From assembly GCF_018736065.1 (NCBI RefSeq), contig NZ_CP076130.1, forward strand, positions 320,001 to 384,000: a stretch of 64,000 nucleotides of DNA, in the 5' to 3' direction. The stretch is from Flammeovirga kamogawensis. Its GTDB lineage: Bacteria; Bacteroidota; Bacteroidia; Cytophagales; Flammeovirgaceae. Position 1 is the stretch's first letter, and every line of letters begins with the position of its first letter. Position numbers and translations under genes: made by a program. The notes beneath the pieces were generated by a model. It was given only the letters and a program-made list of their open reading frames with translations, ran no database searches and was not told the origin of the DNA. Positions 7,937 to 30,544 of the stretch are shown in pieces.

Positions 7937-9829
7937 ATGCACATAGAAGGTGCTAAACATTATAAGATGTTGATTCGAACTATACTAATTGCATTACTAT
8001 GTAGTATTGGAGGACAATTCCTTCAGGCTAAACCAATTTCACTAGAGAACAAAGAAGAAGTATTAATATCTGCTCCTGATTTTACTTTAGTCGTAGATTC
8101 TTTAAATTCATTTTCAATAGAGGATGTAGTAGCCAAACAACGGTTATTTAAAGCACTAAATATACCTATGTTTGTCACCTCAGATACGGCTGTTTCGTAT
8201 TGGGTCAAAATGTCTATAGATGCAACTACTTTAAAAGGAAATTCTTGGGTTTTTGAAATACTAGATAGTCATTTAAGTAGTGTAGAAGCATTTCTGTCTG
8301 AAGATAATCATTTTCCATCAAAAATAGTTTCAGCAGGGTATGATCATCAATTTACTGATAGGGAATTTGAACATAAGAATATAACATTTCCATTAAATGT
8401 AAGAGATTCTACTAAAGTTGCTACCGTATATTTACGTTATAAATCTGATTTTAATAATGTCTTGCTCTTTAAATTAAGTAAAACAACATCTTTCTTTTCT
8501 TATGCATTAAAAGAGTATTTATCACTTGGGCTATTTTACGGTACAATATTATGTTTGATTTTAGTAAATGGGTTGCTATTTATTATTTTAAAAGAACGTT
8601 ACCAGCTTTTAATAATCTTCTATTTGTTGTCGGTAATTTCTTTAGGTTTATCAGAGGATAATTTAGCATCACAATATTTATGGGTAGAAAATCCAGTAAA
8701 TAATTATCATTTGATGAAACTTTCTTCTGTATTTTTCACTATTGCAATTACATTTTTATCCATCAATTTTTTAAAAATAAAGCAGCATCATAACCTATTG
8801 TTTTATGTGATATGGGCAATAACAATAGGCAATGTAGTATATTTTCTTACAGTGAAAGGGTACAATTCACCAATGTGGAATCTTTATTTATTTGGAGTTC
8901 CATTCATTTTAATTTTTTATGTATTAATACGTGCAATAAAAGCGAAAAGAATAAAAACATGGTACTTTTTTATAGGATATAGTACTCTATTATTGCAACT
9001 ACTTACACTCGTTTTAAAATCACACGACCTTTATATTTTTAGTGGAGTTCTCACAGTCTATTCATTTAATGTTACTCTCTTAATTGTAGGTCTACTTATT
9101 ACAATGTCTCAATTTGATAAGTTCAAAAAGTTGAAAGACGAGAAAGAAGCGATTCAAATAAGAGAAATCACAACTTTAAAAGAACAAGAAAAAATTATTG
9201 AGCAAAAAGTTATAGAAAGAACACAAGAGGTAGAAGAACAAAAAGAAATTGTTTTTTATAAGAATAAAGAACTAGAAGAAGTAAATGATTTACTGTTGGC
9301 TCATCAAAAACAAATTGCTTTAATGAACCAGCAATTAGAAAAAGAAAACCGTCAATTACATAATGATGTAGAAGAATTAGCAACGGCAAGAGTAATGCTT
9401 AAAGAAGTCTCTTTTGAAGAATTTGAAAATCTATTTCCAGACGATAATAGTTGTTACGAATATTTAGAGAAGAAGAAATGGGAGGCAGGCTATTCATGTA
9501 AAAAATGTAATGGGACAACTTACGCAAAAGGTCAAGGAGTACTTGGTAGAAGATGTAAGAAATGTAATTACAATGAGTCTGTAACTAGCGGTACAATATT
9601 TCATAGGTTACATTTTCCCATAGAAAAAGCATTCAGAATGTTGTTTATTGTTTTTGCTAATAATGGAGATATTTCAACGTATAAATTATCAGAAGATTTA
9701 GATCTGCGTCAGAATACTTGTTGGAAATTCAAGAAGAAAATTGATGATGCAATGCAAGAAAAAGAAAATCTCACGAATGAAAATAATGTTGATGAAGTGA
9801 AAGGGTGGGATGATCTTATTTTAGGATAG
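7937..9829 (+). CDS. 7TM-DISM sensor fused to a transposase-type zinc ribbon and HTH
   Basis: A membrane receptor with an unusual DNA-binding output. Order: signal peptide (from M1, or from M11 at 7967, which gives a more typical signal), an extracellular 7TMR-DISM sugar-binding-like domain (~45-185), seven membrane helices (~194-392), a coiled coil (~395-490), and a C-terminal domain (~492-602). The C-terminal domain has a zinc ribbon with C521, C524, C540 and C543. An aromatic/basic stretch follows (TSGTIFHRLHFP), then a predicted helix-turn-helix (578-600, STYKLSEDLDLRQNTCWKFK). This arrangement matches the N-terminus of IS1595/ISXO2-type transposases (zinc-ribbon family PF12760), but the DDE domain is absent. 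The 7TM-DISM part usually precedes histidine kinase, cyclase or LytTR outputs. I infer a one-component membrane regulator. It may control its neighbours on either side. Confidence 0.8.
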   Translation: MHIEGAKHYKMLIRTILIALLCSIGGQFLQAKPISLENKEEVLISAPDFTLVVDSLNSFSIEDVVAKQRLFKALNIPMFVTSDTAVSYWVKMSIDATTLKGNSWVFEILDSHLSSVEAFLSEDNHFPSKIVSAGYDHQFTDREFEHKNITFPLNVRDSTKVATVYLRYKSDFNNVLLFKLSKTTSFFSYALKEYLSLGLFYGTILCLILVNGLLFIILKERYQLLIIFYLLSVISLGLSEDNLASQYLWVENPVNNYHLMKLSSVFFTIAITFLSINFLKIKQHHNLLFYVIWAITIGNVVYFLTVKGYNSPMWNLYLFGVPFILIFYVLIRAIKAKRIKTWYFFIGYSTLLLQLLTLVLKSHDLYIFSGVLTVYSFNVTLLIVGLLITMSQFDKFKKLKDEKEAIQIREITTLKEQEKIIEQKVIERTQEVEEQKEIVFYKNKELEEVNDLLLAHQKQIALMNQQLEKENRQLHNDVEELATARVMLKEVSFEEFENLFPDDNSCYEYLEKKKWEAGYSCKKCNGTTYAKGQGVLGRRCKKCNYNESVTSGTIFHRLHFPIEKAFRMLFIVFANNGDISTYKLSEDLDLRQNTCWKFKKKIDDAMQEKENLTNENNVDEVKGWDDLILG

Positions 9830-10087
9830 AATACTTTTCATTTTTAATAAGCGTTAAAATCCACTTTTTTTAAATGATTGTTTTAACAGTTTTAAATAGT
9901 GAATAATACTTGTAATTAATTGATATATAGGTTTTAATGATATTTATTTTTAAGTGATTACTGTTTCTTTATGCGATTTTAATAAAGTTGTTTAATTACA
10001 CTTAATGTTGGATTATTGTAGTGTAATCAAATACAAAAATACTATACTATAAACAGAGTATTTGATACATGGCTAATACTTTGCATT

Positions 10088-10990
10088 ATGAATAAAAATA
10101 TAACTGTTGTCGGAAGTTCGAACACAGATATGGTTGTGAAAACTACTCGACTACCACAACCAGGTGAAACTATTTTAGGAGGAACTTTTAATCAATATCA
10201 AGGCGGAAAAGGAGCAAATCAAGCGGTAGCTGCTGCAAAACTAAATGGCAATGTTACTTTTATAGCTAAAGTAGGTAAAGATAGTTTAGGAGTTGAAGCT
10301 ATTAAAAGTTATCAAGAAGTTGGTATTAATACAAATCAGATATTAAAAGCAGAGAACGAGGCAACAGGTGTGGCATTAATAACGGTAGACGATAATGCAG
10401 AAAATAGTATTGTTGTATCATCTGGGGCAAACGCTTTACTATCAGTAGAAGACATCACTCAACAAGAAAAAATATTTACAACATCGGCAATCACTTTAGT
10501 ACAATTAGAAACACCTATTGTAACCGTTCAAAAAGTGGTTGAGTTAGCTAAAAACCACAATAATACTGTTGTTTTAAACCCTGCACCAGCACAACAATTA
10601 TCAGATGCAATATTAAAAAATGTAGATATTATTACACCCAACGAGACAGAGACGCAACTCTTAACAGGAGTAGAAATTAATGATATTACTTCTATGGAGA
10701 AGGCATCTGAAATATTTCATAATAAAGGAATAAATACTGTTGTAATCACACTCGGTAAGCAAGGTGCATATTTATCTAATTCAGAGTATAACGAAATTAT
10801 TCCAGCTCCAATTGTAAAAGCTATTGATACAACAGCAGCAGGTGATGTTTTTAATGGTGCACTTACAGTAGCTTTGGTAGAAGGCGAAAATATAAAACAA
10901 GCAATACAATTTGCAAGTAAGGCTGCATCAATTGCCGTAACTAGAAATGGTGCTCAAAATTCTGCACCTACTTTAGATGAACTTCTTTAA
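10088..10990 (+). CDS. rbsK: Ribokinase (PfkB family)
   Basis: It phosphorylates ribose to ribose 5-phosphate using ATP, in the cytoplasm. The N-terminal substrate loop shows GGKGANQAVAAA near residues 39-50, the ribokinase form of PfkB signature 1. Near the C-terminus DTTAAGDVFNG (247-257) carries the catalytic D253 and the anion hole; the usual GAGD is AAGD here. Length (300) is normal. It heads a three-gene plus-strand set with a sugar transporter 21 bases downstream and a surface ADP-ribosylglycohydrolase-like lipoprotein after that, which supports ribose as substrate. Other pentose or nucleoside PfkB kinases are possible but less likely. Confidence 0.88.
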   Translation: MNKNITVVGSSNTDMVVKTTRLPQPGETILGGTFNQYQGGKGANQAVAAAKLNGNVTFIAKVGKDSLGVEAIKSYQEVGINTNQILKAENEATGVALITVDDNAENSIVVSSGANALLSVEDITQQEKIFTTSAITLVQLETPIVTVQKVVELAKNHNNTVVLNPAPAQQLSDAILKNVDIITPNETETQLLTGVEINDITSMEKASEIFHNKGINTVVITLGKQGAYLSNSEYNEIIPAPIVKAIDTTAAGDVFNGALTVALVEGENIKQAIQFASKAASIAVTRNGAQNSAPTLDELL

Positions 10991-11011: not shown

Positions 11012-12010
11012 ATGTTTTTAATAGAAAATTATTCTTTAGCAGTAGCCTTTTGTTTTATCACTATGCTCTGTTGGGGTTCTTGGGCTAATACTCAAAAACT
11101 TGCAAGTCAGAAATGGAATTTCCAATTGTTTTACTGGGATTATTCTATTGGAGTGGTTCTTATCTCTTTACTTTTAGCACTTACCATGGGTTCTTATGGT
11201 GAACATGGACGTGGATTTATTCAAGATATAACATCGGCAAATTCAAGTGCAATTATGAGTGCTTTTATTGGTGGTGTCATTTTTAATATAGCAAATATAC
11301 TACTTGTAATAGCTATTGATATTACAGGAATGGCTGTCGCTTTTCCGGTAGGTATTGGGTTAGCATTAGTGATTGGTGTTATAGATAATTACATAAAAGA
11401 CCCTTCAGCAGATCCATTTTTAATATTTACAGGAGTACTACTAATTGTATTGGCAATTTTACTCAATGCAATTGCTTATAAACGTCTGCCAAATCAACAA
11501 TCAGGAAGTAGTAAAGGGATAATTATTGCATTAATTGCTGGAGTATCGATGGGGTTCTTTTATGGTTTTGTTGCAGATGCAATGGCTACAAACTTAATCA
11601 CTCCAGAACTAGGAAAGTTAACTCCTTATTCTGCTGTAGTAGTATTTGCATTAGGAATTATGCTCTCAAATTTCATTTTTAATACCATTAATATGTATAA
11701 ACCTCTATCAGGAGAGGCGGTATCTTATGCAGATTATATACATAAAGGAACAACAAAATTACACCTTATTGGTATTCTTGGTGGGGCAATTTGGGGAGTA
11801 GGAATGGCTTTTAACATTATCGCTTCAGAAGTTGCAAGTCCGGCAGTATCTTATGGATTAGGGCAAGGAGCCACCATGATTGCTGCATTTTGGGGAGTTG
11901 TAATATGGAAAGAGTTTCAAGATGCTCCAAAAGGAACAAATAAATTATTAAACCTTATGTTTTTGCTATTTATAGTAGGACTTGGGTTGGTTGTGTATTC
12001 AAAATTATAA
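11012..12010 (+). CDS. GRP-family (GlcU/RhaT-like) sugar transporter, ten membrane helices
   Basis: This 332-residue inner-membrane protein has about ten hydrophobic helices across its whole length. The N-terminal WGSWANTQKL and the two-fold five-helix pattern fit the drug/metabolite superfamily, glucose/ribose porter branch. Members import sugars with protons. It lies 21 bases after ribokinase and 11 bases before the glycohydrolase lipoprotein, so ribose is the likely cargo. The substrate rests on context, not on a residue motif. Mid-protein, a loop (~155-170, RLPNQQSGSSKG) separates the two halves. Confidence 0.8.
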   Translation: MFLIENYSLAVAFCFITMLCWGSWANTQKLASQKWNFQLFYWDYSIGVVLISLLLALTMGSYGEHGRGFIQDITSANSSAIMSAFIGGVIFNIANILLVIAIDITGMAVAFPVGIGLALVIGVIDNYIKDPSADPFLIFTGVLLIVLAILLNAIAYKRLPNQQSGSSKGIIIALIAGVSMGFFYGFVADAMATNLITPELGKLTPYSAVVVFALGIMLSNFIFNTINMYKPLSGEAVSYADYIHKGTTKLHLIGILGGAIWGVGMAFNIIASEVASPAVSYGLGQGATMIAAFWGVVIWKEFQDAPKGTNKLLNLMFLLFIVGLGLVVYSKL

Positions 12011-12021
12011 GGCATAAATTA

Positions 12022-13968
12022 ATGAACAAATTTTACCAATATATCGGGGTATTACTTCTTAGTTTAACTGTAATAGGTTGTACTGAAAAAGAAGAAAAAG
12101 GGAATTATAAATTACTTTCAGTAGAAGAATATAACGATGCTGTTTATGCATCTTGGATAGGACAAATTGTAGGAAATACTTATGGTTTAGGATATGAGTT
12201 TAAATTTATAGATGAGCCAGGTCCAGATAAATTTCCTTATGGATATGATTTTACGTTAGAAGATCTTAAGAAGCATAATGGAGCTTATTCTGATGATGAT
12301 ACAGATATTGAGTATATGTATTTGACTCAAATGGAAAAGAATGGAATAGAACCAAGCTATAAAAATTTAGCCAACGCGTGGTCTACTCATGTAAAAGAAC
12401 GTGTTTGGTTTGCCAATAGAATGGCCGTAACATTAATTAATGCAGGTCATTTTCCACCTGTATCAGGTTCAATTGGTTATAATACAGAGTGGTTTCAGAT
12501 AGACCCTCAATTGGTAAATGAAATTTGGGCAGTAACTTCTCCAGGCATGATTAATTATGCTGTTGAAAAATCAGAATTTTCTGCTAGGATTACTAATGAT
12601 AGTTTCGGTATTGATCCTACTTTACATTATGCAGCAATGTATAGTGCCGCATTTTTCGAAAAAGATATTCATAAATTAATTGATATTGGAACAGAGTCTC
12701 TTCCAAAAAACAGTCGTTTTAAAGCCATAGTTGAAAATGTAAAAAAATGGCATTCAAAACACCCTAATGATTGGCAGAAAGCAAGAGCACTTGTAAAAGA
12801 ACATTACTATGTTGTTGAAGATTATAACAGACATTCTTGGGCTGTTGTAGATGCAAATTTAAATGGAGCATATGGAATTATGGCTCTTTTATACGGGGAT
12901 GGCGATTTCCAAAAAACATTAGATTATAGCTGTGCATTTGGAATGGATGCAGATAATCAGGCAGCAACAATGTGTGGTTTATTGGGTATAGTGAATGGTT
13001 CTAAAAGCATACCTCATGACTTAATGTTTCCTGTAGAAGGTGCAAATTGGAAGCTCCCTTTTAATGATCAATATAAAATGATAACAAGAGAGGGCTTATC
13101 TGATGAAACACTTACTAACCTTGCAAAAAGAACTGCTATACAAGGAGAGAGAATTATTAAAGCATATGGAGGTGAAGTGATTACAAAAGGAGGGAAGCAA
13201 TATTATAAAATCAATACTGATGCAAAATTTGTAGCTCCTTTCGAATTAAATACTATTCCAAAAATGGCTATAGAAGTAAACCATCCATTTAATTATCCTA
13301 TCTATACTGGTGGTAATAAAGGAGATGTAAAAGTAAAAATTGAGGGTGAATTACCTAAAGGAATCGCATTGACATCAACTGCTTTGGAAGGAACACCTAC
13401 TGAAGTAGGAACGTATGCTTTTGATATAATTGCGGAATATAAAGGTGAAGTAAAAGCAATCAATGTAAAATTTGATGTACATTCTAAAAACTTAGCTTCT
13501 ACAGCAAAAGAAGTGGTTTATAATAAGAACTCAACAAATAAAAATATTGAGTTAATTAGAAATGGAACAACAAAAGAAACATATTATAGTACTAAAAAAG
13601 GAACTGCCAGAGAAGTTGATTTTTACGGTTATAAATGGGATAAACCACAAACAATTTCAGCTTTAATTTATAATAATGGACAATCTGGAGAGTTTTGCGG
13701 TTGGTTTACTTCTTTTGAGGTCGAAGTTCTGAAAAATGGTAAATGGGTTAAACTAGAAGGTGAAGAAGTGTCTCCAAAAATGAATTTAGATAATTCGCAA
13801 TGGTTAAAGCCTTGTTTTATGAATTACGAAATAACTTTTAAGCCTGTAACTACTAAAGGAATCAGAATTGTTGGTCTTGGTGGCGGCATTGAAAAAGATG
13901 CAAATAATGCTCACTTAGGCATACAGTATTATACCTCAATTAGCGAATTGAGTGTATTTGAGAAATAA
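12022..13968 (+). CDS. ADP-ribosylglycohydrolase-like lipoprotein with C-terminal binding domains
   Basis: This exported lipoprotein (lipobox VIGC, C20) has an ADP-ribosylglycohydrolase fold at about residues 35-400. Metal-site segments are SDDDTD (90-95) and GMDADNQAA (307-315), matching the family's N-terminal acidic motif and C-terminal DxD. A putative-Ig/cadherin-like domain follows (~415-490), then a discoidin-like domain (~500-648). The family cleaves N- or O-glycosidic bonds to ribose, in ADP-ribosylated proteins or in nucleosides. Transporter and ribokinase upstream suggest the released ribose is taken up and phosphorylated. Because it is secreted, the substrate should be external. 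The exact substrate is not readable from the sequence. Confidence 0.82.
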   Translation: MNKFYQYIGVLLLSLTVIGCTEKEEKGNYKLLSVEEYNDAVYASWIGQIVGNTYGLGYEFKFIDEPGPDKFPYGYDFTLEDLKKHNGAYSDDDTDIEYMYLTQMEKNGIEPSYKNLANAWSTHVKERVWFANRMAVTLINAGHFPPVSGSIGYNTEWFQIDPQLVNEIWAVTSPGMINYAVEKSEFSARITNDSFGIDPTLHYAAMYSAAFFEKDIHKLIDIGTESLPKNSRFKAIVENVKKWHSKHPNDWQKARALVKEHYYVVEDYNRHSWAVVDANLNGAYGIMALLYGDGDFQKTLDYSCAFGMDADNQAATMCGLLGIVNGSKSIPHDLMFPVEGANWKLPFNDQYKMITREGLSDETLTNLAKRTAIQGERIIKAYGGEVITKGGKQYYKINTDAKFVAPFELNTIPKMAIEVNHPFNYPIYTGGNKGDVKVKIEGELPKGIALTSTALEGTPTEVGTYAFDIIAEYKGEVKAINVKFDVHSKNLASTAKEVVYNKNSTNKNIELIRNGTTKETYYSTKKGTAREVDFYGYKWDKPQTISALIYNNGQSGEFCGWFTSFEVEVLKNGKWVKLEGEEVSPKMNLDNSQWLKPCFMNYEITFKPVTTKGIRIVGLGGGIEKDANNAHLGIQYYTSISELSVFEK

Positions 13969-14475: not shown

Positions 14476-16002
14476 TTACTTTTGCCACCACATTTGAGTT
14501 TCCAACTTATCACCGCCAATTCTAGAAGCAGCTGTACTTCTATTTGTTGGGTTAAGCTGTTGCTCAGAGGATGGATATGTATATCTTTGAATAATTATAT
14601 TTCTACTTGGACCTTCTGCAGGGGGAGCAAGTGGAGCACCTCCTAAACGAATTGCTTCTCTCCATCCGTTGAATGGAGAGTTGTAATTTGCAATCCATTT
14701 TTGAAGACCAATGATCTCTTTAAATGTTTTACCACTAGATAAGAGTGTTGAATAATCTACATTTGCCTGTGCTAAATAAGCAGTAATATCTACATCTTCT
14801 ACACCCCATTCTTTCATAGAGGCTGTAATTCCTTCGTTATAATACATCTGAGCTTGTGTAGTATTGCCTTGTCTAGCAGCTTGTTCTGATTGAATAAAAA
14901 ACGTTTCAACAATAGAAAATAATTTACCAACCTGCGTAGGATCTTGCTGATAACTAGGTGCTATATGAGAATATTTACTGAAAGAAGTTGACGCACCTCC
15001 ATATAAAATACCTTTATAAATCACCTTTGTAATTACTTCTCCGTCAGCATCTTTTAGTGTATCTCCTTTACTGTCAAACTGAACTTCTTGAAGATTATTA
15101 TCGATATAAAATGGTCTTCTAGGATCTTCTAAATCATTCAAAACATCTACTAAAGTATTCGCCATATTAAACTCAATAGGTCTATTAGATCCCGTAACAT
15201 CCCAATATTCAAATACTGGATTTGCATTAGGAAATGTACTTTTATATGGAAACATAGCTTCGCCTTCTATATCTTTTATATAACCTTTTGAAGCGGCTAA
15301 ATCAAAATATTTTTTAGAATTAGCAGCATCAACATCTGCTATTCTCATGGCCATTCTCATCATTATAGAACCTGCAAAGTCTTTCCATTTGGTCATGTCT
15401 CCTTTATAAATAATATCAGTAGAAGTAAAAGCTTTTCCAGAAAGATCTGAATTGACTACTTCTTCTAAAACACCTAAAGTTTTCATGTAAATAGATTGAG
15501 CATCATCGTATTTAGGGTAAATTACCTGATTACTTCCTAAAGCTTCTTCGTAGGGAACATCTGTAAAAAAATCTGTCAATTGTAGCCAAGCATACGATTC
15601 TAAGACTTTAATAATTGCCATTTTATTGGTGTATTCTTGTTCAGGAATAACCTCTCTTTCCCCTTCAACAATGGCTTTTGCATCCATTAAATCATTAAGA
15701 AGTATATAATAGTAATCCCAGATAGTACCATTAATATCTCTATTATCAATATAATACTGCGATTCTGCAACATATTGCACTTGCATCCAATATTGTGCAA
15801 ATAACCTAGTATTACTCCAGTTTACACTTGGGTTTTGCTCTACATCTACCAACTTTTGTTCAGTGGTAGATATCAAGTAAGCAGCATCAATTGTTAGTGG
15901 TTTCTTCGGATCGGTATTAATTTCTTCATATTCTGATGTACATGAAATAAAGGCATTTAGTATAATCAGAAGAGGAATATATTTTTTCAATTGTAAATAC
16001 AT
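14476..16002 (-). CDS. SusD/RagB-like outer-membrane lipoprotein (SusD-like_2 type)
   Basis: This is a surface glycan- or peptide-binding lipoprotein that lids a SusC channel. The signal ends in a lipobox (AFISC, C21). The mature protein shows TPR-type helices and the N-terminal motif YEEINTDPKKP, typical of the shorter SusD-like_2 / nutrient-binding group. Length 508. It starts 53 bases after the SusC gene and is certainly co-transcribed with it. No glycoside hydrolase, lyase or peptidase follows: the locus ends at a terminator. The ligand therefore cannot be guessed. Confidence 0.9.
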   Translation of the reverse strand: MYLQLKKYIPLLIILNAFISCTSEYEEINTDPKKPLTIDAAYLISTTEQKLVDVEQNPSVNWSNTRLFAQYWMQVQYVAESQYYIDNRDINGTIWDYYYILLNDLMDAKAIVEGEREVIPEQEYTNKMAIIKVLESYAWLQLTDFFTDVPYEEALGSNQVIYPKYDDAQSIYMKTLGVLEEVVNSDLSGKAFTSTDIIYKGDMTKWKDFAGSIMMRMAMRIADVDAANSKKYFDLAASKGYIKDIEGEAMFPYKSTFPNANPVFEYWDVTGSNRPIEFNMANTLVDVLNDLEDPRRPFYIDNNLQEVQFDSKGDTLKDADGEVITKVIYKGILYGGASTSFSKYSHIAPSYQQDPTQVGKLFSIVETFFIQSEQAARQGNTTQAQMYYNEGITASMKEWGVEDVDITAYLAQANVDYSTLLSSGKTFKEIIGLQKWIANYNSPFNGWREAIRLGGAPLAPPAEGPSRNIIIQRYTYPSSEQQLNPTNRSTAASRIGGDKLETQMWWQK

Positions 16003-16055
16003 AATTGATATTATTTTCTAGTCAGTTGACTATGTAATTACTGTTTTATTTTATT

Positions 16056-19000
16056 TTATAACTTCGCTTTTACGCTAAATCCAAATGTTCTTGTTGTTGG
16101 GTTAGACCCAGATTCAAAACCTTGAACATTACCAGATCGGAGTGTAATTTCAGGATCGAAATAAGGGATGTTTTTATGTAGAATTGCTAGGTTTCTACCG
16201 TAAACACCAAGAGTAATCGCATTAAATGGACTATTTGTTATAAGGTTTGATGGGAGAGTATAAGTGATGCTTACATCTCTTAATTTTATCCAAGAGGCAT
16301 CATAAATATATACAGCATCTGGGTTTTGATTATAATTAAATGCAGAACCACTCCCTGAGACATCATTAGGTACAAAAATATCGTTTGGAGACCCATCCTC
16401 CTTTACACCTTCTAACAATAATCCTCCTCCATTAGCAAGAGAATTTCTTGATGGATTACCTTTAGAATTTAATCCTGCAGTTTCTTCATACAAGCCTGTA
16501 GACAATCCGTATCTATAAGATTCTGAGAATATTTCACCACCAATTGACATATCAATAAGCGCACTTAATCGAATCCCTTTATAAGAAACAGAAGTAGAAA
16601 CACCACCTGTCCAATCTGGTTGCATATTACCAATAATTTCATCAGAAGATACCGCACCTTCCGCATCAGAAGCATAAATATAGAAGCCCTCGTCGTCTAC
16701 CATTTTACCACCATTTTCATGGTATTTAAAATTTGTTCCTTTTATTGCGCCATAAGGCTGACCAACTGCAGCTGTTACAGATGCTGTTCCTGTAAGGTTT
16801 CCTAAAACAAGGTTTTCTACGCCATTAGATAATGATGTAACTTCAGAAATATTTTTACCAAAATTAAAACCTAAATTCCATTCTAGTCCATAAGAAGTTC
16901 GGACTGGAGTAGTGTTAAGAGAAATTTCTACACCTTTATTTCTTACATCTCCAGCATTTTGAAATTGTGAAGTATAACCTGTAGCACCCGTTGTTTGCAC
17001 ACCTAAGATTTGATTTCTTGTTGTACGGTCATAGAATGTGAGGTCAAGACCAATTCTTCTCTGAAAGAACATAACTTCAAGGCCAAGTTCTAATTCGTTT
17101 GTTAGCTCAGGTTTTAACTGAGGGTTGTATAGTGTAGATCCTACAGAAGAACTACTTTTACTGTATTTAGGAACATCGCCAAATTTACCTACAGAATTAT
17201 AATAGTTTGTAGTGTTATAAGGTGATGTATCGTTACCAACTTGAGCATAACCAAATCTTACTTTACCAAAAGAGATGACATCGCTATTTTTTAGAGAATT
17301 TAGTTCTGAAAAAATAAATGATGTAGACACTGCAGGGTAGAAAAATGAGTTCTCTGATGGAGGAAGTGTAGAAGACCAATCATTTCTAGCAGATACATCT
17401 AGATATACCATATCTTTCCAACCTAAAGAGGCATTTGCATAAATACTTTGAACTTGTCTACTAGAAACTTCTTCATCAACAACATATTCTGGTGATACAG
17501 AGTTGCTTAACGCATATAAATCTTTTACCACTAAACCTCCTCTTGTTGCATTGTATAACGAATAACTATTTTGCGTTCTCACATTACCACCTACCATAGC
17601 AGTTAATGAAAGATCATTGGCAAAACGTTTATTGATATTTGTTCTTATATCAAAATTAGTTTCTTTTCCATTCTTCTTAAAAATTGAATATTGTGGAGTA
17701 TCTGTTCCTCCTACGGCAATTCTTTCCTCTTGCTCTAAAGAATAAGTATCTATTGCTCCAATACCTGTTACAGACCACCAATCTGTTAATTTGTAATTTA
17801 AATTAAAATTCCCATAAAGACGATCTCTAGAATCATTTTGATAATTTTTAAACCTAACCCAATAAGGGTTATCGAAGAATGCTGGTCTACCGTCTGTAAT
17901 ACTTCTTCTGTTCCAAGTATTTTGATTTCCAGCAGCATCTACATAATTATTTTTCAATCTATCAAAGTCCAAATTAGTCTGAAACCATTGGTTAAAAGAT
18001 TGACCAACATTTCTAGGGTCATAACCTGTACCATTTCTACCAAGGCCTTCTACTGTAATATAAGACCCAGAAAAAGAAACATTAAATCTATCCGAAAGAT
18101 TATGAGAAGCGTTAAAGTTGATATTATTTCGATTTAAATTAGAATTAGGAAGTACTCCTTTAATGTCTTTATAAGTGTAACCTAACCTAAAATTAGAGTT
18201 TTCGGTGCCACCATCTAAGCCTACATTATACGTTTGCGTAACACCTGTTTCATAAAAATGTTCTGGTCCTTTTTCCGATGCTACATATGGTCTGGTTTTT
18301 CCATATTCTGCGGTATTTGTGGGATCAAAACTGTCCCAATGTCTTACTTGTAAATTGGGATCAAACTTAGGACCAAAAGATGCATCGTCAGAAAAGTTGA
18401 CAGTTGGGTTTCCGTTCTCATCTGTTTCTGTAAAACCGCCACCAACACCTCCGTAACCAGCACCATATTCTTTTTGGTATTTTGGCATTGTAGCAGTATT
18501 AATTTTATCAAAAGATACGTTTGCACCAACAGTAACGCCAATTCCCTTCTTTTTCGTCCCTTTTTTAGTTGTAATCATTATTACACCATTTGCACCTCTA
18601 GAACCGTAAAGTGCAGTAGCTGTTGCTCCTTTTAGAACCGAAATTGTTTCAATACTGTTAGGGTCTATGTCTTGAGATAAATCTCCATAATCATAACCAC
18701 CAGCACCAGTACTTTGACCACTTTCATTTTCATTTGAATTAGAAATTGGCACTCCGTCTACAACGTATAACGGTTGGTTACTAGACCCAATTGTAGAGTA
18801 ACCCCTAATTATAATATTAGAAGAACCTCCCATATTTCCTGAATTTCTCACTTGTAATCCTGATACTCTACCTGAGAGAGAATTGGTGATATTTTCACCA
18901 GCGGTCTCAGAAAATTGATCACTTTGTATTTTTTGAACGGAGTAACCAAGAGACTTTTCATCTCTAGTAATACCCAAAGCAGTTACAACAACTTCATCTA

Positions 19001-19301
19001 GTTGTTCAATATCTTCTTCTAAGTTAACGTCTATTTTATTGTTACTGCCTACTTTTATTTCTTTTGATTTGTATCCAATAAGCGAATAGACCAATGTAGC
19101 ATCAGCTTCTTTAATCATTAATTGATAATGGCCGTCAATATCTGTTACACTACCTTGTGAAGTTCCTTTTATTATTACTGCAACGCCGGGTAGGGGTGCA
19201 TTAGTTTCGTCAAGAATTGTTCCTGATATAGCTCTTTCTTGTGCCGTTACAAAATTTTGTAAACCAAAGACAAGCAAGACTAGTACTACTAGTTTTCTCA
19301 T
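16056..19301 (-). CDS. SusC/RagA TonB-dependent outer-membrane receptor
   Basis: A 22-strand TonB-dependent importer of 1081 residues. A signal peptide covers 1-20, then a carboxypeptidase-regulatory-like domain (~22-100), a SusC-type TonB/plug entry (QLDEVVVTALG near 100), plug (~115-250) and barrel to the C-terminus (RTFGFSVKAKL). It imports large solutes, lidded by the SusD encoded 53 bases downstream. The promoter must lie in the 600-base gap upstream. This pair is an orphan in that no degradative gene is attached; the divergent neighbour is a hydrolase-fold lipoprotein, which may or may not be related. Confidence 0.93.
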   Translation of the reverse strand: MRKLVVLVLLVFGLQNFVTAQERAISGTILDETNAPLPGVAVIIKGTSQGSVTDIDGHYQLMIKEADATLVYSLIGYKSKEIKVGSNNKIDVNLEEDIEQLDEVVVTALGITRDEKSLGYSVQKIQSDQFSETAGENITNSLSGRVSGLQVRNSGNMGGSSNIIIRGYSTIGSSNQPLYVVDGVPISNSNENESGQSTGAGGYDYGDLSQDIDPNSIETISVLKGATATALYGSRGANGVIMITTKKGTKKKGIGVTVGANVSFDKINTATMPKYQKEYGAGYGGVGGGFTETDENGNPTVNFSDDASFGPKFDPNLQVRHWDSFDPTNTAEYGKTRPYVASEKGPEHFYETGVTQTYNVGLDGGTENSNFRLGYTYKDIKGVLPNSNLNRNNINFNASHNLSDRFNVSFSGSYITVEGLGRNGTGYDPRNVGQSFNQWFQTNLDFDRLKNNYVDAAGNQNTWNRRSITDGRPAFFDNPYWVRFKNYQNDSRDRLYGNFNLNYKLTDWWSVTGIGAIDTYSLEQEERIAVGGTDTPQYSIFKKNGKETNFDIRTNINKRFANDLSLTAMVGGNVRTQNSYSLYNATRGGLVVKDLYALSNSVSPEYVVDEEVSSRQVQSIYANASLGWKDMVYLDVSARNDWSSTLPPSENSFFYPAVSTSFIFSELNSLKNSDVISFGKVRFGYAQVGNDTSPYNTTNYYNSVGKFGDVPKYSKSSSSVGSTLYNPQLKPELTNELELGLEVMFFQRRIGLDLTFYDRTTRNQILGVQTTGATGYTSQFQNAGDVRNKGVEISLNTTPVRTSYGLEWNLGFNFGKNISEVTSLSNGVENLVLGNLTGTASVTAAVGQPYGAIKGTNFKYHENGGKMVDDEGFYIYASDAEGAVSSDEIIGNMQPDWTGGVSTSVSYKGIRLSALIDMSIGGEIFSESYRYGLSTGLYEETAGLNSKGNPSRNSLANGGGLLLEGVKEDGSPNDIFVPNDVSGSGSAFNYNQNPDAVYIYDASWIKLRDVSITYTLPSNLITNSPFNAITLGVYGRNLAILHKNIPYFDPEITLRSGNVQGFESGSNPTTRTFGFSVKAKL

Positions 19302-22826: not shown

Positions 22827-24437
22827 ATGAAAAACTTAACAACAACATTTTTTTTATTTTTTCTTTGTCTTCAGACTTCTTTTGTCTTTGCTCAAAAACC
22901 AGTTATTGTTATTAATAATGGTTTTGAAGACGGATTGAAAAACTGGGAAGTAAAAGGAAAAGTTCAAAAATCTCAGGATGTTTATGCGGGTAAAGGTTCT
23001 GCAAAACTAGCTGAGAAAGGAGCTGAAATTTATCAATATGTTCGTGTAGAACCTAAAAAAGACTATGTATTACGTGTTGCTGTAAAAGGTAACGCGAATG
23101 TATTTGTAACTGTAAAAGGTAAAAAACAAGAAAAGACAATTACCAATAAGAAGTTTGATATTGTTGAAATTACTTTTAACAGTGGAAAAGCAAAAAACAT
23201 TTCAATTGGAGCCGAATACAAAGAGGGTGATTCTCGTTTAGATGATTTTTCTATCTCAGCAGTTGTTGAAGAAGCAACAAATGAAAACGAAAATATGAGT
23301 CCAATTTTAATTGTAAATAATGGCTTTGAAGATAGATTTAAATATTGGGATATTTCTGGAGAAGTATCACCATCTAACGTAACGAAAAGCGGAGAAAAAT
23401 CTGCTAAAATGGATGCTAAAGGAGAAATTAAGCAAACCGTTAAAATATACCCTAATCAAGAATACACATTAACCGCAGCTGTAAAAGGAAAAGGACAACT
23501 TTTTGCAGTTATTAAAGGAGAAGAATTTACTCAGGATTTTAATACAGAAGAATTTGAAGAGGTATCTCTAAGTTTTACATCGAATGCAAAATCAAAAAAT
23601 GTAATTATTGGAGGACGCTATACCGAAAAACAAGTTCGTTTTGATGATTTTAAAATCACTAACCTTAATCAAGTAATTGATCCAAATTACCAATATCCTT
23701 CTGATGTTATTCCTTCTTTAACAGATTGGAAAATTACATTACCAATAAATGCTTTAGGCGAAGATAATAGAAGAGTACTTAAGGTGGACGAAAGAATAAA
23801 AACACCTTTAGAAATTGCAGATCAAGCAATAGTAGGTTTTGAATATAAGCCATATTTTTATGCCAAAAATGGGGAGGTATTTTTTAGAGCTCATTGTGCA
23901 GGTGTAACTACAAAAGGATCAAAATATCCAAGGTCTGAACTACGCCAAAGATCTGGACATGGAAATTTATATTGGTCGGTTAACGATCCACAATATTTAC
24001 AAACTGAACTACGCGTAACACACCTACCACAAATAAAATCTAACGTATGCATTACGCAAATTCATGGTCCAGATGATGAACCATTAAGAGTGCATTATAG
24101 TAAGAAAAAGGGTGTTTATATTGTTTGGAATGAAAATAACAAAGACTATGAAAATGCACTTGATTACAACCTTGGTGAACAACTTAGAATTACCGTTAAT
24201 GTAGACAATGGTTTTATTGCTTGTGAAATTGAGAATCTTGATCAAAAAACAAAGTATAAAAAAATCTGGAAGTCTATGGATAGTACAGGCTATTTTAAAG
24301 TTGGTTGTTATACTCAAGCATCAAAATTTCAAAGCCAAATCAAAAGTAGTGGGGTAGACGAACCTTATAAATCTTATGGAGAAGTGGCCGTAAAATCTAT
24401 AGTTTTAAAAACTACATATACTCCAAAAAATAAGTAA
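22827..24437 (+). CDS. PL7 alginate lyase with two N-terminal binding modules
   Basis: A secreted endo-acting alginate lyase cutting by beta-elimination. Signal peptide 1-22 (FAQ cleavage). Two related ~120-residue modules follow (about 25-145 and 155-275), each opening with the same pattern (V-NNGFED-----W) and ending DDF, like CBM4/9/16 beta-sandwiches. The PL7 domain is at ~290-533, with RSELR (369-373), QIH (411-413) and YFKVGCYTQ (489-497, catalytic Y495 and H413 by family analogy). The QIH form is linked in the literature with guluronate-containing substrate, which is only a hint. No T9SS tail or lipobox, so periplasmic or freely secreted. A hairpin terminator stands just before its start. 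Confidence 0.92.
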   Translation: MKNLTTTFFLFFLCLQTSFVFAQKPVIVINNGFEDGLKNWEVKGKVQKSQDVYAGKGSAKLAEKGAEIYQYVRVEPKKDYVLRVAVKGNANVFVTVKGKKQEKTITNKKFDIVEITFNSGKAKNISIGAEYKEGDSRLDDFSISAVVEEATNENENMSPILIVNNGFEDRFKYWDISGEVSPSNVTKSGEKSAKMDAKGEIKQTVKIYPNQEYTLTAAVKGKGQLFAVIKGEEFTQDFNTEEFEEVSLSFTSNAKSKNVIIGGRYTEKQVRFDDFKITNLNQVIDPNYQYPSDVIPSLTDWKITLPINALGEDNRRVLKVDERIKTPLEIADQAIVGFEYKPYFYAKNGEVFFRAHCAGVTTKGSKYPRSELRQRSGHGNLYWSVNDPQYLQTELRVTHLPQIKSNVCITQIHGPDDEPLRVHYSKKKGVYIVWNENNKDYENALDYNLGEQLRITVNVDNGFIACEIENLDQKTKYKKIWKSMDSTGYFKVGCYTQASKFQSQIKSSGVDEPYKSYGEVAVKSIVLKTTYTPKNK

Positions 24438-26015: not shown

Positions 26016-29000
26016 ATGTTAAGATTTATACTGAAATGGCAAAAGCAGCTATTTATTTTTTTAGTAATGATACTTATAAATACTTCAGCCTATGCGCAAG
26101 TTCAAGTATCAGGAATAGTAACTTCTAAGTCTGATGAATTTCCGATACCCGGAGTTACAATTCTAGTAAAAGGCACAACTGTTGGAACGGTAACAAACTT
26201 TGATGGTAAATATACTATTACTTGTGAACCAAATGATATGCTAGTATTTAGGTATATCGGAATGGAAGAACAATACATCGAGGTAAATAACCAAACAACA
26301 ATTAACGTTTTAATGGTTGACAAACTAGAACACCTTGATGAGGTAGTTGTAGTTGGTTACGGTACTCAACGTAAATCTCACGTAACGGGTGCAATCTCAA
26401 AAGTAAAAAATGAAAAATTAGATCAGTTACCTGTATCTCGTGTAGACGAAGCCTTAATTGGTCAGGTTTCTGGGGTAAACATTCAAATGACGAACCCTCA
26501 AGCAGGTTCATCTCCAACAATTCAGGTACGTGGTGTAGGTTCTATCGGAGCTGCCGCATCTCCTGCAGTAGTTGTCGATGGGGTTCTTGTAGATTCAGAT
26601 TATCTAGCCTCGTTAGATATGAATGATGTGGAATCTATAGAGGTATTAAAGGATGCTTCATCTGCAGCAATCTTTGGTTCTAGAGGTGGTAATGGTGTAA
26701 TCATGATTACTACAAAATCTGGAGAGCCGGGGGAAACAAAGTTTAGTTTTAATAGTTATTATGGTCGTAAATGGGCTTTAACTAGAGATAACTTCCGTCC
26801 AACTGTTGCTCAAACAAAAGCAACTGCAGAAGCTTATAGAGCAGAAATTGAACAAAACTTCCCTGATTACGCAGAAGATGAACAATTAAACTACATCTAT
26901 AACAAGGCGAACACAACTATTACAAGGTTGGAGCACATGCAGAGAATCACTCCTGGTGAAGAAACTGATTGGCAAGATATTATCTTTCAAGAAGGAAATA
27001 TTCAATCGTACTCTTTAAGTGCTAACGGTGGTTCTGAGAATACTAATTATCATATCTCTGGTGCCTATCTACAAGATGATGGAGTTTTACTTGCAGATTC
27101 TTATTCTAAAATGAATTTACGCTTTAAATTAAAAACAAAGCTGTCTAAGAAATTAGAATTAGGTGTCAATTTTAACCCAACAAGGGAGCAAAAGCAAGTT
27201 TTTCCAACTTCAGTGCATGAGTCACTTCGTCAATCGTCTTGGTTACCAATTAAGCACGATGACCACACAATTCAATTTGTAGATAGAGGAAACTTTCCAG
27301 ATGTAGCTGTAGGAGATTATGCACAAGAATCTCATTTTAACAACTATCCAGATCCGAACGATCCTACTAAGACATTACCGAATTTGAGTGTAACAAATAA
27401 CTCAAATCCATATGCAAATATTGTAGAGCGTGACCACAAAGAACTTACGCATAGAATTTATGCAAGTGCATATGTGAAATATAAAATCTTAAAAGGGTTA
27501 AACTTCCGTTCGTCGCTTGTTACAAACTACCGTAACAGAGCTCGTAATTACTACGATGGAACAAAAGCAACTAGAAATGGTGCTGCTGATGCTCGATTAA
27601 GAACAAGAACTTATAATGATTTTGCATGGATAAACGATAACTACTTTACATACAATAAAACCTTTAACGGCAGACACGATTTAAATGCAACTTTAGGTAT
27701 GTCTTTTGAACAAAGGAATTATAATTTCACAGAAACAATTGGTACAGGTTTTACAAATGATGCCGTACAAACAATGAATGCAGCTTCGACTATTGCTTAC
27801 GGAGATGAATCTAGAGCGGTAGAAACTTTACATTCTATTTTTGCTCGTGTGAATTATGCTTTTGATGATAAATATCTATTCTCACTTTCAATGCGTACAG
27901 ATGGTAGTTCTAAATTCGGATCTAATTATAAGTACGGTGTTTTCCCTGCTGCATCTTTTGGATGGAGAATTACAGAAGAAAGCTTTATGGATAATGTAAA
28001 TTGGATATCAGTATTAAAGCCAAGAATATCTTATGGTATTACGGGTAATAATTCAGGTATTGGATATTACGAAGCATTAGAAAGAATGTCTCCATCAGGA
28101 GCAGTAGTAGGAGGTAATGTATCTTCTGGTTATGTACCGTCTAATATTGCACAACCTGATTTACGTTGGGAACAGCAAGTTGAGCTTAACCCAGGTATTG
28201 ATTATGGATTTTTTGGAAACAGAGTTTTTGGTTCTGTTGAATGGTACCGTCGTACTTCTTCAAACCTATTGTTAAGCCAACAAATACCTTCAATCACAGG
28301 TTTTGATCAAAGAACAATTAACTTAGGACAGGTACAAAACCAAGGTTTCGAATTTGAAATGAGTGTGAAACCTATCGTATCATCTAAATTTAATTGGACG
28401 TTAACAGCAAACGCATCAACAAATGAAAATAAATTAATTGATTTTGGTGGTGTTGATAGCTTAATAACTATTGTAGATTCAAAAAGACCAGCTAACTGGA
28501 TTGCTGTAGAAGGACAACCTATTTCATCTTTCTATGGTTACCAAATAGATCGTTCTAAAGGTGATAATGGAAAAGTTCCTTTTGAGTACTTAAACGAAGG
28601 TTTCTGGCCAATTGGTGGTAAATCTCAAATGGGTTATGTTAAGGATTTAAATGACGATGGTGTTATTGATGATAAAGATCGTACGATTTTAGGTTCGCCA
28701 TATCCAACTTTTATTTGGTCTGTTACTAACTCATTCCAAGTAGGACCATTTGATATTATGTTCATGTTCCAAGGTTCTATGGGTGGAAAAACGCTTAATA
28801 TAGATCCTCAGTACTACGAGTATCAAACAATGCAAGGACAGCGTCCTAATACGCAATTCTTTGATGATATGAGTTTAGTAAAAGAAAGAATTCTAACAGA
28901 TGACGTTGTTCAGGATGCTTCTTTTATTGCACTTAGAAGTTTAAACATGGGCTTTACATTGCCTGAGCGTTGGATTACTAAAATTGGTTTAAATAAAACA

Positions 29001-29165
29001 CGCCTATATTGTTCTGGTACAAACCTACTTTACATAATGGCTGATGATTATACTTCTTTCAACCCTGAAGGGATAAGAGACGAAGGACCAATTAATTATG
29101 GTTATCAAAGAGGAGCTGCTCCAATTCCTCGCTCATTTATTATAGGTATTAACGCTGAATTTTAA
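26016..29165 (+). CDS. SusC-like TonB-dependent receptor of the alginate locus
   Basis: A 1049-residue outer-membrane importer. Signal peptide ~1-27 (SAYAQ), carboxypeptidase-regulatory-like domain ~29-110, plug from ~115 starting with the SusC signature DEVVVVGYGTQRKSH, then the barrel. Substrate is most likely alginate oligosaccharides, since PL7, KdgF and the SDR lie just upstream and the promoter shares their operator. The SusD gene follows after 14 bases. Family length and domain set are normal. Confidence 0.94.
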   Translation: MLRFILKWQKQLFIFLVMILINTSAYAQVQVSGIVTSKSDEFPIPGVTILVKGTTVGTVTNFDGKYTITCEPNDMLVFRYIGMEEQYIEVNNQTTINVLMVDKLEHLDEVVVVGYGTQRKSHVTGAISKVKNEKLDQLPVSRVDEALIGQVSGVNIQMTNPQAGSSPTIQVRGVGSIGAAASPAVVVDGVLVDSDYLASLDMNDVESIEVLKDASSAAIFGSRGGNGVIMITTKSGEPGETKFSFNSYYGRKWALTRDNFRPTVAQTKATAEAYRAEIEQNFPDYAEDEQLNYIYNKANTTITRLEHMQRITPGEETDWQDIIFQEGNIQSYSLSANGGSENTNYHISGAYLQDDGVLLADSYSKMNLRFKLKTKLSKKLELGVNFNPTREQKQVFPTSVHESLRQSSWLPIKHDDHTIQFVDRGNFPDVAVGDYAQESHFNNYPDPNDPTKTLPNLSVTNNSNPYANIVERDHKELTHRIYASAYVKYKILKGLNFRSSLVTNYRNRARNYYDGTKATRNGAADARLRTRTYNDFAWINDNYFTYNKTFNGRHDLNATLGMSFEQRNYNFTETIGTGFTNDAVQTMNAASTIAYGDESRAVETLHSIFARVNYAFDDKYLFSLSMRTDGSSKFGSNYKYGVFPAASFGWRITEESFMDNVNWISVLKPRISYGITGNNSGIGYYEALERMSPSGAVVGGNVSSGYVPSNIAQPDLRWEQQVELNPGIDYGFFGNRVFGSVEWYRRTSSNLLLSQQIPSITGFDQRTINLGQVQNQGFEFEMSVKPIVSSKFNWTLTANASTNENKLIDFGGVDSLITIVDSKRPANWIAVEGQPISSFYGYQIDRSKGDNGKVPFEYLNEGFWPIGGKSQMGYVKDLNDDGVIDDKDRTILGSPYPTFIWSVTNSFQVGPFDIMFMFQGSMGGKTLNIDPQYYEYQTMQGQRPNTQFFDDMSLVKERILTDDVVQDASFIALRSLNMGFTLPERWITKIGLNKTRLYCSGTNLLYIMADDYTSFNPEGIRDEGPINYGYQRGAAPIPRSFIIGINAEF

Positions 29166-29179
29166 TCATCACTATTGAA

Positions 29180-30544
29180 ATGAAATCAATTATAAAAATA
29201 GTTTTCGCAGTAGTATTATCGAGCTTAGTTGCTTGTAATGACTTTCTGACGGAATATCCGATATCTGAAGTAGGCGTTGACAACTACTTAAAAAATGATG
29301 ACGAAGTTGAAACTGCAGTTATAGGCATCTATTCTGGCCTACAAGATGTTGTTCAACAAGAATATGCAATTTTAGAGATGAGATCTGACAATGCTGGAAC
29401 ACGTAGTGGTGTAGGTGATTGGGCTCAATTCGAATCTTTTACTTTAATTACAACAAACTCTGTTGTTGCTAATTATTGGAATGCATGTTACAGTACTTTA
29501 TACAGAACAAATTTAGTTCTTGCTAGTATTGAAAATGTTGTAGACCCTACTAAAAAGCAACAATTTGAAGCTGAAGCTCGCTTTGTTAGAGCTTATATTC
29601 ACTTTAATTTAGTCCGCCTATTTGGTAGTGTTCCAATTGCAAACAGAAAGGTAGAAGAAGGTGATTTAGAAGGATACAAACAAGTTGAAGCTAGTGAAAT
29701 TTATACATTAGTAGAAGAAGACTTAAGGTTTGCTACAGAGAATTTACTTTCAAGAGATCAAATTACTTTAGGTAGAGCAAATAAAGAAACAGCAGAAACA
29801 ATGTTGGCAAAATACTTCTTAAAATTTAAGAACTATGATGAAGCTAAAACATTATTACAAGCTGTTATCGATAGAGGAAACTTCTCTCTAGCAACAAATT
29901 ATGAAGATATTTTTTATCAAGAATTAGGCAGCGAAATTATTTTCCCTATCTCTTTTATTGATGATAATACTGATAATTCTCAATCTTTCTCTTATTACTT
30001 TTTATACGAGCAAGGTTCACACAATTATGCTACTGAAGATATGATAAATCTCTATGAATCTTCGCCTGGTATAGCTGGAGAAGACTATAGATATACAACA
30101 AACATTGTCGACCAACGTGGTGAAAGACAAGGTTGTGGTAAATTCTTATCAATATCAAGTAATATTAGATTATCTGGTAACGATTACGTTCACACAAGAT
30201 ATACAGATGTGCTTTTACTTTATGTAGAAGCAGTAATTGGAGATAGTTTCCAAACATCAGATGCTGTTGCATTAAGTTACTTTAATGCAATAAGACAACG
30301 TGCTGGGTTAGCAGAAATACAAAATATTACTAGCCCAAGATTAGCAACAGAAAGAAGAAAGGAATTTCTATATGAAAACCAACGTTGGTTTGATTTAGAT
30401 AGAACTGGGAATCTTGAAGCAACAATTACAAACTTTATGAATAACCAAGGATTAAACTTTGACAAACGCCATTTATTACTACCAATTCCACAAAGAGAAA
30501 TTGACACAAGTAAGGGGCAACTAGATCAAAACCCTGGTTACTAG
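29180..30544 (+). CDS. SusD/RagB-like lipoprotein of the alginate locus
   Basis: A 454-residue surface lipoprotein that binds oligosaccharide and caps the SusC channel. Lipobox LVAC (C19) then NDFLTEYP, a common start for RagB/SusD. TPR helices follow, and the C-terminal SusD motif RRKEFLYENQRWFDLDR near residues 390-406 is strong (longer than usual match to the family R-x-E-F--E--R--DL-R). The end, LLPIPQREIDTSKGQLDQNPGY, is the classic family tail (key points LLPIPQREID and QNPGY). Co-transcribed with SusC. Confidence 0.94.
   Translation: MKSIIKIVFAVVLSSLVACNDFLTEYPISEVGVDNYLKNDDEVETAVIGIYSGLQDVVQQEYAILEMRSDNAGTRSGVGDWAQFESFTLITTNSVVANYWNACYSTLYRTNLVLASIENVVDPTKKQQFEAEARFVRAYIHFNLVRLFGSVPIANRKVEEGDLEGYKQVEASEIYTLVEEDLRFATENLLSRDQITLGRANKETAETMLAKYFLKFKNYDEAKTLLQAVIDRGNFSLATNYEDIFYQELGSEIIFPISFIDDNTDNSQSFSYYFLYEQGSHNYATEDMINLYESSPGIAGEDYRYTTNIVDQRGERQGCGKFLSISSNIRLSGNDYVHTRYTDVLLLYVEAVIGDSFQTSDAVALSYFNAIRQRAGLAEIQNITSPRLATERRKEFLYENQRWFDLDRTGNLEATITNFMNNQGLNFDKRHLLLPIPQREIDTSKGQLDQNPGY

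Follow-up and report, generated by a model that had tools for sequence, protein, structure and literature searches.

We consider it quite probable that the protein encoded at positions 7937 to 9829 of the window, a 64,000-nucleotide stretch of Flammeovirga kamogawensis DNA (NZ_CP076130.1, positions 320,001 to 384,000), is a one-component, membrane-tethered transcription regulator of the adjacent sugar operon, which it would control via paired DNA repeats with a module captured from an IS1595 transposase. Computation established the domain make-up of this receptor, its position in the tree, its retention under purifying selection, the lack of a DDE nuclease, its SusC/SusD or sugar-gene neighbours and the conservation of the paired repeats. 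The gene and its parts are as follows.

7937..9829, + strand: receptor gene, 630 amino acids (sensor, 7TM domain, coiled coil, zinc ribbon and helix-turn-helix), from the ORF, Pfam, NCBIfam and alignment
8078..8476, + strand: 7TMR-DISMED2 sensor, residues 48-180 (PF07696, E 2e-17)
8513..9106, + strand: 7TMR-DISM_7TM membrane domain, residues 193-390 (PF07695, E 3e-19)
9107..9406, + strand: cytoplasmic coiled coil, about residues 391-490 (alignment and full-length structure model)
9437..9571, + strand: IS1595-type zinc ribbon, residues 501-545, with C521, C524, C540 and C543 (Pfam, alignment and module model)
9620..9775, + strand: helix-turn-helix region, about residues 562-613 (NF033547 at 559-620 and module model)

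The ORF, which begins with ATG, has the coordinates and the four cysteines given in the original prediction, and Pfam and NCBIfam confirm the C-terminal IS1595-type zinc ribbon and helix-turn-helix (HTH), devoid of a DDE domain, behind a 7TM-DISM sensor and a coiled coil. The extracellular DISMED2 domain scored 63.8 bits against a Pfam cut-off of 22, and the 7TM domain 70.3 bits against 29. In the whole protein Zn_ribbon_IS1595 lies exactly at its gathering score of 25.4 (E 1.3e-5), rising to 28.8 bits (E 1.2e-6) when the C-terminal piece is searched alone. Residues 559-620 match positions 3-68 of the 215 in NF033547, the NCBIfam model of IS1595 transposases, with an E of 7e-7, a partial match whose 29.3 bits fall under the model cut-off of 75. 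The protein terminates about 17 residues past the HTH, and Pfam searches of it at E 1 revealed neither the DDE/ISXO2 domain PF12762 nor histidine kinase, receiver or AraC domains. Across the full-length alignment (26 rows, the window protein included) C521, C524, C540 and C543 are invariant, as are HTH positions including L588, R591 and T594, while E422, V425, R428 and T429 are unchanged in the coil, which we take to be similar to a signalling helix.

The predicted structure of the C-terminal module (pLDDT 91, pTM 0.82) displays helices at module residues 70-82, 89-96 and 100-124. In the full-length model (pLDDT 80.6, pTM 0.59) a single helix spans residues 376-488 and is weakest at 459-486, where pLDDT drops below 50 at 459-481 and 483-486. 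A fold search of the PDB with the module returned 245 matches at E values up to 10, short HTH and zinc-ribbon fragments among them, and none at E 0.001; a PDB sequence search gave two weak matches in the coil region (E 0.6).

The 6.97 Mb genome from which the window derives encodes three full-length members of the family, the window receptor and two paralogues, L002 (49% identity) and L003 (44%), whose alignments reach query residues 629 and 628, respectively. A fourth protein, L004, comprises 236 residues with one apparent membrane helix, a coil and the module. Two further 7TM proteins, L005 and L006, match the receptor only to residues 497 and 503 and lack the ribbon, showing that 7TM receptors with other outputs exist beside the family. 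These two are the only exceptions among the 35 fetched whole-protein matches, the top-scoring ones, of which 33 keep both CxxC pairs. Relatives thus continue through the zinc ribbon, and the chance fusion that the original prediction had held out as its refutation is not supported. That the fusion is beyond chance follows from the two full-length paralogues in the same genome and from the apparent purifying selection on coil and module. Against an orthologue in genome G034, 85% identical to the window receptor, the coil gave a dN of 0.012 and a dS of 0.56 (97 of 100 residues identical) and the module a dN of 0.046 and a dS of 0.99; dN/dS was ∼0.02 for the coil, 0.05 for the module, 0.08 for the 7TM domain and 0.20 for the sensor. 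Judged from these substitution rates, coil and module are under purifying selection.

The distribution of matches indicates that the receptor belongs to a widespread family. A whole-protein search, in which matches to the 7TM part alone also counted, was positive in 222 of 291 genomes from the order, while the module alone matched in 126 of those 291 genomes and in 58 of 395 genomes of the phylum, transposases being included. In a scan of titled genomes, which selects on half of the ribbon, 205 of 235 stretches encoded relatives; the 80 kept all carry Bacteroidota names and include Flammeovirga, Flexithrix, Persicobacter, Fulvivirga, Roseivirga, Marivirga, Siphonobacter, Sporocytophaga, Pedobacter and Mucilaginibacter. 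Receptor-like ORFs, defined by a module match with at least 250 residues ahead of it, numbered 132 (106 distinct). Being picked by the module, this set speaks to tail length and cysteine integrity rather than to how often the module is retained: both CxxC pairs are present in all 106 distinct ORFs, and the tail past the module is at most 17 residues in all 132.

The module is not confined to 7TM receptors. It is C-terminal in three proteins with Reg_prop propellers and Y_Y_Y domains, L200 (1068 aa), L201 (1001 aa) and L202 (1046 aa, with a ribbon under the Pfam cut-off), and it occurs in the 307-residue L210, which apparently has two membrane helices; coils and membrane helices in these four proteins were judged by eye. 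Such swapping of sensors ahead of one module is typical of signal-transduction output modules.

The similarity to transposase zinc ribbons on which the original prediction depended is readily detected. The window module is 42% identical over 146 residues to L205 and 41% over 144 residues to L204, both IS1595 transposases of the same order that contain the DDE domain and are each associated with a perfect 16-bp inverted repeat; with L162, which is cut by a contig end, identities span 41-45% over 128-146 residues. This homology to IS1595 transposase N-termini supports the proposal that the domain was captured from a transposon. A quick tree (128 columns, no bootstrap, one long row, L004) comprised 52 receptor representatives together with 28 other modules; in it a branch with 98% SH-aLRT support places transposases on the other side from the receptors, with the one-TM protein L004 and the solo module L054 on the receptor side. 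The topology fits a single capture of the module from an IS1595 transposase, which is allowed rather than proven by these sequences. L054, from genome G445, is a 137-residue protein consisting of the module alone that clusters with the receptors. The window's genome contains no IS1595 DDE domain above cut-off (best 14.4 bits against 27), and PF12760 matches it six times at E 1, in the three receptors, L004, a 140-residue solo protein and a 544-residue frame that lacks a DDE domain. The 140-residue stand-alone protein (L010, G000:C1:349981) has a zinc ribbon and an apparent HTH and presumably resembles the N-terminus of IS1 InsA-type proteins. Genome G447 encodes ten diverged IS1595-like proteins (L152-L161; module scores of 148-159 bits), all of which lack two aspartates, taken by us to be catalytic, that L204 and L205 retain; the ten are apparently an expanded family of transposase relatives that are no longer active.

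Downstream of the receptor gene lies a presumed target operon.

10088..10990, + strand: pfkB-family (ribokinase-like) sugar kinase, first gene of the presumed target operon (PF00294, E 7e-72)
11012..12010, + strand: permease of the ureide permease and sugar transport families (PF07168, E 2e-20; PF06800, E 4e-7)
12022..13968, + strand: ADP-ribosylglycohydrolase-family protein, perhaps a lipoprotein (by eye) (PF03747, E 3e-27)

Neighbours were called mechanically in 87 receptor loci, a set that includes near relatives and many Pedobacter loci. Of the 85 genes at +1, 70 share the receptor's strand, and a TonB (SusC-type) Plug domain is present at this position in 41 (14 of 44 and 27 of 41 in the two sets). 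SusD_RagB matches occur in 37 of 82 genes at +2. Upstream, at most one of 78 genes at -1 has a Plug domain, which was outside the 25 families listed, the last of these having one member each; four of the 82 genes were left out of this count. Similarity clusters place SusC-like proteins at +1 in 40 loci and at +2 in seven, all on the receptor's strand, with two more farther downstream on the same strand (+3 and +4) and three upstream on the other strand. Those at +1 belong to the window's genus, to MAGs that bear no genus name and to ten titled genera (Flexithrix, Pedobacter, Siphonobacter, Fulvivirga, Parachryseolinea, Albibacterium, Chryseosolibacter, Roseivirga, Agaribacillus and Shiella). 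Within the window's genome L002 lies upstream of SusC and SusD, with GH3 and GH16 genes farther along, L003 faces a GH81 glucanase gene (a divergent target) and L004 faces a GH18/GH19 chitinase gene. The Plug protein is at +1 in fewer than half of the loci, which weighs against the regulator reading, and in genomes G077, G104, G131 and G204 the gene at +1 of the L002 orthologue encodes a patatin, not SusC. The adjacent downstream operon is the likely target of the receptor; neither this nor the breadth of the family was part of the original prediction.

The DNA between the receptor gene and the sugar-kinase operon contains TTTTTAARTGAT at 9867 and again at 9947, 80 bp apart, the pair beginning 36 bp past the receptor stop codon.

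9865..9879, + strand: candidate operator site 1, TTTTTTTAAATGATT (motif pair)
9945..9959, + strand: candidate operator site 2, TATTTTTAAGTGATT (80 bp past site 1, same orientation)

Random-seed motif discovery had yielded low-complexity motifs only, and the motif was seeded instead from aligned intergenic sequences. Alignment of receptor-susC intergenic DNA revealed that the motif, which is conserved, is present as two direct copies in three groups, namely the window's genus, Pedobacter and Fulvivirga/Roseivirga; the window locus, whose target operon is not susC, carries the same pair, as does the DNA flanking the G034 orthologue, again with a spacing of 80 bp. When any spacing of 62-92 bp was allowed, the exact pair occurred ten times over nine genomes of the genus, within five of the nine, at 80 bp in eight cases and 67 bp in two, whereas the reversed pattern was absent from the same genomes. 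Seven of the ten pairs are directly 3' of a receptor gene. The other three comprise one ahead of a GH81 gene in G155, where no receptor is encoded within the 3 kb fetched, and two orthologous pairs ahead of a LanC-like gene. The latter (L226 and L229, from two species) have the exact sites 67 bp apart, at 1501 and 1568, and likewise no receptor within 3 kb. The L003-GH81 gap contains an exact site preceded at 80 bp by a second copy with two mismatches, and a further two-mismatch site. All three full-length receptors of the window's genome therefore adjoin a pair, which in one case is degenerate; beside L004 no pair was seen. The exact pair is absent from the whole of G077, G104, G131 and G204, in which receptors are present, and a search of these four for a looser second site found none. 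A search of 12 genomes for a Pedobacter-type exact pattern found none; receptors are encoded in at least four of the 12 (L034, L037, L044 and L046). Single sites are frequent: loose matches number 10 in the window compared with 5.1 expected, a count that 3 of 100 shuffles reach.

Over 107 non-redundant downstream regions pair spacings cluster at 64-67 and 76-81 bp, with a motif seed drawn from all groups. A cross-test was repeated with seeds from the training group only, at a PWM threshold of 10 bits, the two groups not being independent because some Cytophagales receptors group among the Pedobacter ones in the tree. In 25 Sphingobacteriaceae-type regions the PWM from 73 others gave 15 forward and 2 reverse matches, compared with a shuffled mean of 2.3 (maximum 6 in 200 shuffles); the reciprocal test on the 73 gave 15 forward and 1 reverse, with a shuffled mean of 0.9 (maximum 4). 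The forward matches are spread over 11 of the 25 and 13 of the 73 regions, respectively. Upstream regions yielded 8 matches in 5 of 23 Sphingobacteriaceae-type regions and none in 60 others, and coding regions 2 (of 25) and 0 (of 73). PWM-free pairs at 64-67 or 76-81 bp, spacing windows picked after inspection of the data, occurred in 22 of 92 downstream regions, compared with 4 of 92 upstream ones and 4 of 107 coding ones; at the 61 other spacings the three sets gave similar counts (20, 17 and 22). Among 30 non-redundant loci with a same-strand +1 gene of at least 900 residues, the all-trained PWM detects a pair with a spacing of 62-82 bp in 22, an in-sample figure. An origin of the operator in IS ends is not supported: 70 bp of each L204 and L205 end scored no more than 6.5 bits with the operator PWM, under the shuffled 95% levels of 7.7-8.0. 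In several Pedobacter receptor-susC gaps (L098, L108, L116-L118, L120, L122, L123 and L125) a conserved imperfect palindrome, by eye ∼TAACTAnCTAnTTnAYAGnTAGTTA, separates the second repeat from the start of susC.

These observations suggest that the receptor probably controls the adjacent sugar-use genes through the pair of repeated DNA sites. The periplasmic DISMED2 domain may detect a sugar-like ligand; the DISMED2 domain of NicD is reported to bind carbohydrates directly (PMC8544897, in excerpt). The 7TM domain and coiled coil would relay the signal and hold a putative dimer, and the zinc ribbon and HTH, rid of the ancestral DDE nuclease, are predicted to bind DNA at the two direct-repeat sites 80 bp apart just 3' of the receptor gene. 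Binding would most likely activate, rather than repress, the operon for the sugar kinase, the permease and the ADP-ribosylglycohydrolase-like protein. The one-protein route from membrane to DNA that the original prediction proposed is one that we also infer, with independent support from the conserved repeat pair and the co-localisation with sugar operons.

Zinc ribbons can also mediate protein contacts, and the ribbon-HTH might instead be a protein-docking or zinc-responsive module that signals independently of DNA, the repeats being bound by another regulator. The dissimilarity between the repeats and the IS ends, the expected target of the ancestral module, is consistent with such a role. 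It is nevertheless unlikely given the invariant HTH positions (L588, R591 and T594) in the 26 rows and the presence of the repeats beside three paralogous receptors with unrelated targets, where no other common neighbour was seen. That the receptor acts as a repressor or autoregulator is quite improbable. Although the pair begins so close to the receptor's own stop codon, and the eight PWM matches in 5 of 23 regions lie upstream of Sphingobacteriaceae-type receptors, at the divergent L003/GH81 locus the pair is oriented as the target, the G155 pair precedes GH81 where no receptor is encoded within the fetched 3 kb, and the nearest analogue, SusR, is described as an activator (PMC3878776, in excerpt). 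It is very improbable that the module, albeit clearly homologous to transposase N-termini, retains transposon-end affinity and serves to sense or repress IS1595 elements rather than to regulate sugar genes, as the window's genome has no above-cut-off IS1595 DDE domain and the IS ends score below shuffled levels with the operator PWM.

The preferred reading, a membrane-tethered activator of the adjacent sugar operon, invites comparison with known regulators. According to the available text of PMC3878776, SusR-like proteins of Bacteroides are regulators located in the membrane and frequently encoded next to susC/D; their predicted operators consist of direct repeats spaced 67 or 77 bp centre to centre, and their DNA-binding domain resembles no other known one. 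The SusR mechanism is called undefined in an excerpt of PMC6874557. The receptor shares with SusR-like proteins a membrane location, a periplasmic sensor, a cytoplasmic DNA-binding domain (predicted here) and adjacency to susC/susD. It also shares long-spaced direct repeats, the predicted sites being 80 and 67 bp apart in the receptor's genus, 64-67 and 76-78 bp elsewhere, and 67 or 77 bp for SusR-like proteins. Four proteins encoded next to sus-type loci, which we take to be SusR-like from position and make-up, B. thetaiotaomicron SusR itself not being among them, and whose genomes are presumably Bacteroidales (same class), contain DUF6377, with weak TPR matches in three of the four, and lack a zinc ribbon; neither a DUF6377 region nor a TPR-like sensor was found in the window receptor. 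With hhalign the module showed no homology to these proteins (probability 0.3%), and only the coil aligned, weakly (19%). Three of the four gene gaps have their best repeats (11 of 12 bp) at spacings of 77, 66 and 77 bp, and the fourth (10 of 12 bp) at 90 and 68 bp, values obtained with no shuffled control. The missing ribbon and lack of profile homology in the four proteins speak against placing the receptor in the SusR family; it would work like SusR but is not counted as a member. Two membrane-tethered regulators with no detectable homology thus seem to share one operator geometry.

Other systems share single elements with the receptor. IS1595/ISXO2 transposases have the same zinc ribbon and HTH (the receptor ribbon being at the gathering score and its HTH match below cut-off); unlike them, the receptor lacks DDE and has the module at its C-terminus, behind a membrane sensor and coil. 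Proteins with the ChiS-family DNA-binding domain include a 7TMR-DISM combination, yet that domain is described as a cryptic HTH of proteobacterial genomes, zinc being unmentioned in the main text, and this description sets it apart. Like HTCS, family members adjoin susC/D, and L200-L202 carry the Reg_prop/Y_Y_Y sensors that HTCS also use; the window protein differs in that kinase, receiver and AraC domains are all missing from it. For HTCS the mean distance between repeats is given as 21 bp (PMC3878776, in excerpt). Neither 7TM nor zinc ribbon appears in the main text of PMC3878776 or in the excerpted PMC12125979. Among the open-licence PMC papers listed, as represented by titles and the starts of abstracts, a transposase-derived output domain on 7TM-DISM receptors, its susC/D link and the (predicted) operator pair are undescribed, and in that scope they are new here.

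On balance it seems likely that the family, which extends across Cytophagales and Sphingobacteriales, adds another class to the regulators of polysaccharide-utilization and sugar operons, beside SusR, HTCS and ECF sigma systems. It would derive from one ancient capture of an IS1595 DNA-binding domain, joined first to a coiled coil and later combined with several sensors (7TM-DISM, beta-propeller, one or two membrane helices), with an operator geometry convergent with that of SusR. One-protein glycan sensing across the inner membrane is already known in Bacteroidota from SusR; if the convergence is real, it suggests that membrane-tethered activators physically require a pair of DNA sites separated by six to eight helical turns. 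In this family nature has repeated the arrangement many times, with a DNA-binding domain that can be recognised and with predicted operator pairs limited to a few discrete spacings; how a membrane-bound protein finds and activates its operator is therefore directly testable. The family would also be a clear example, in bacteria, of a transposase DNA-binding domain, by prediction still binding DNA, turned into a signal-transduction output, and many susC/D loci of Cytophagales, Pedobacter and related genera could then be matched with a regulator.

Elsewhere in the window are two SusC/SusD pairs, at 14476-19301 (- strand) and 26016-30544 (+ strand), with an alginate lyase gene (22827-24437, + strand) upstream of the second. 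Positions 51821-60748 (- strand) encode a 2975-residue protein in which LamG-type lectin domains are combined with a Por secretion tail.
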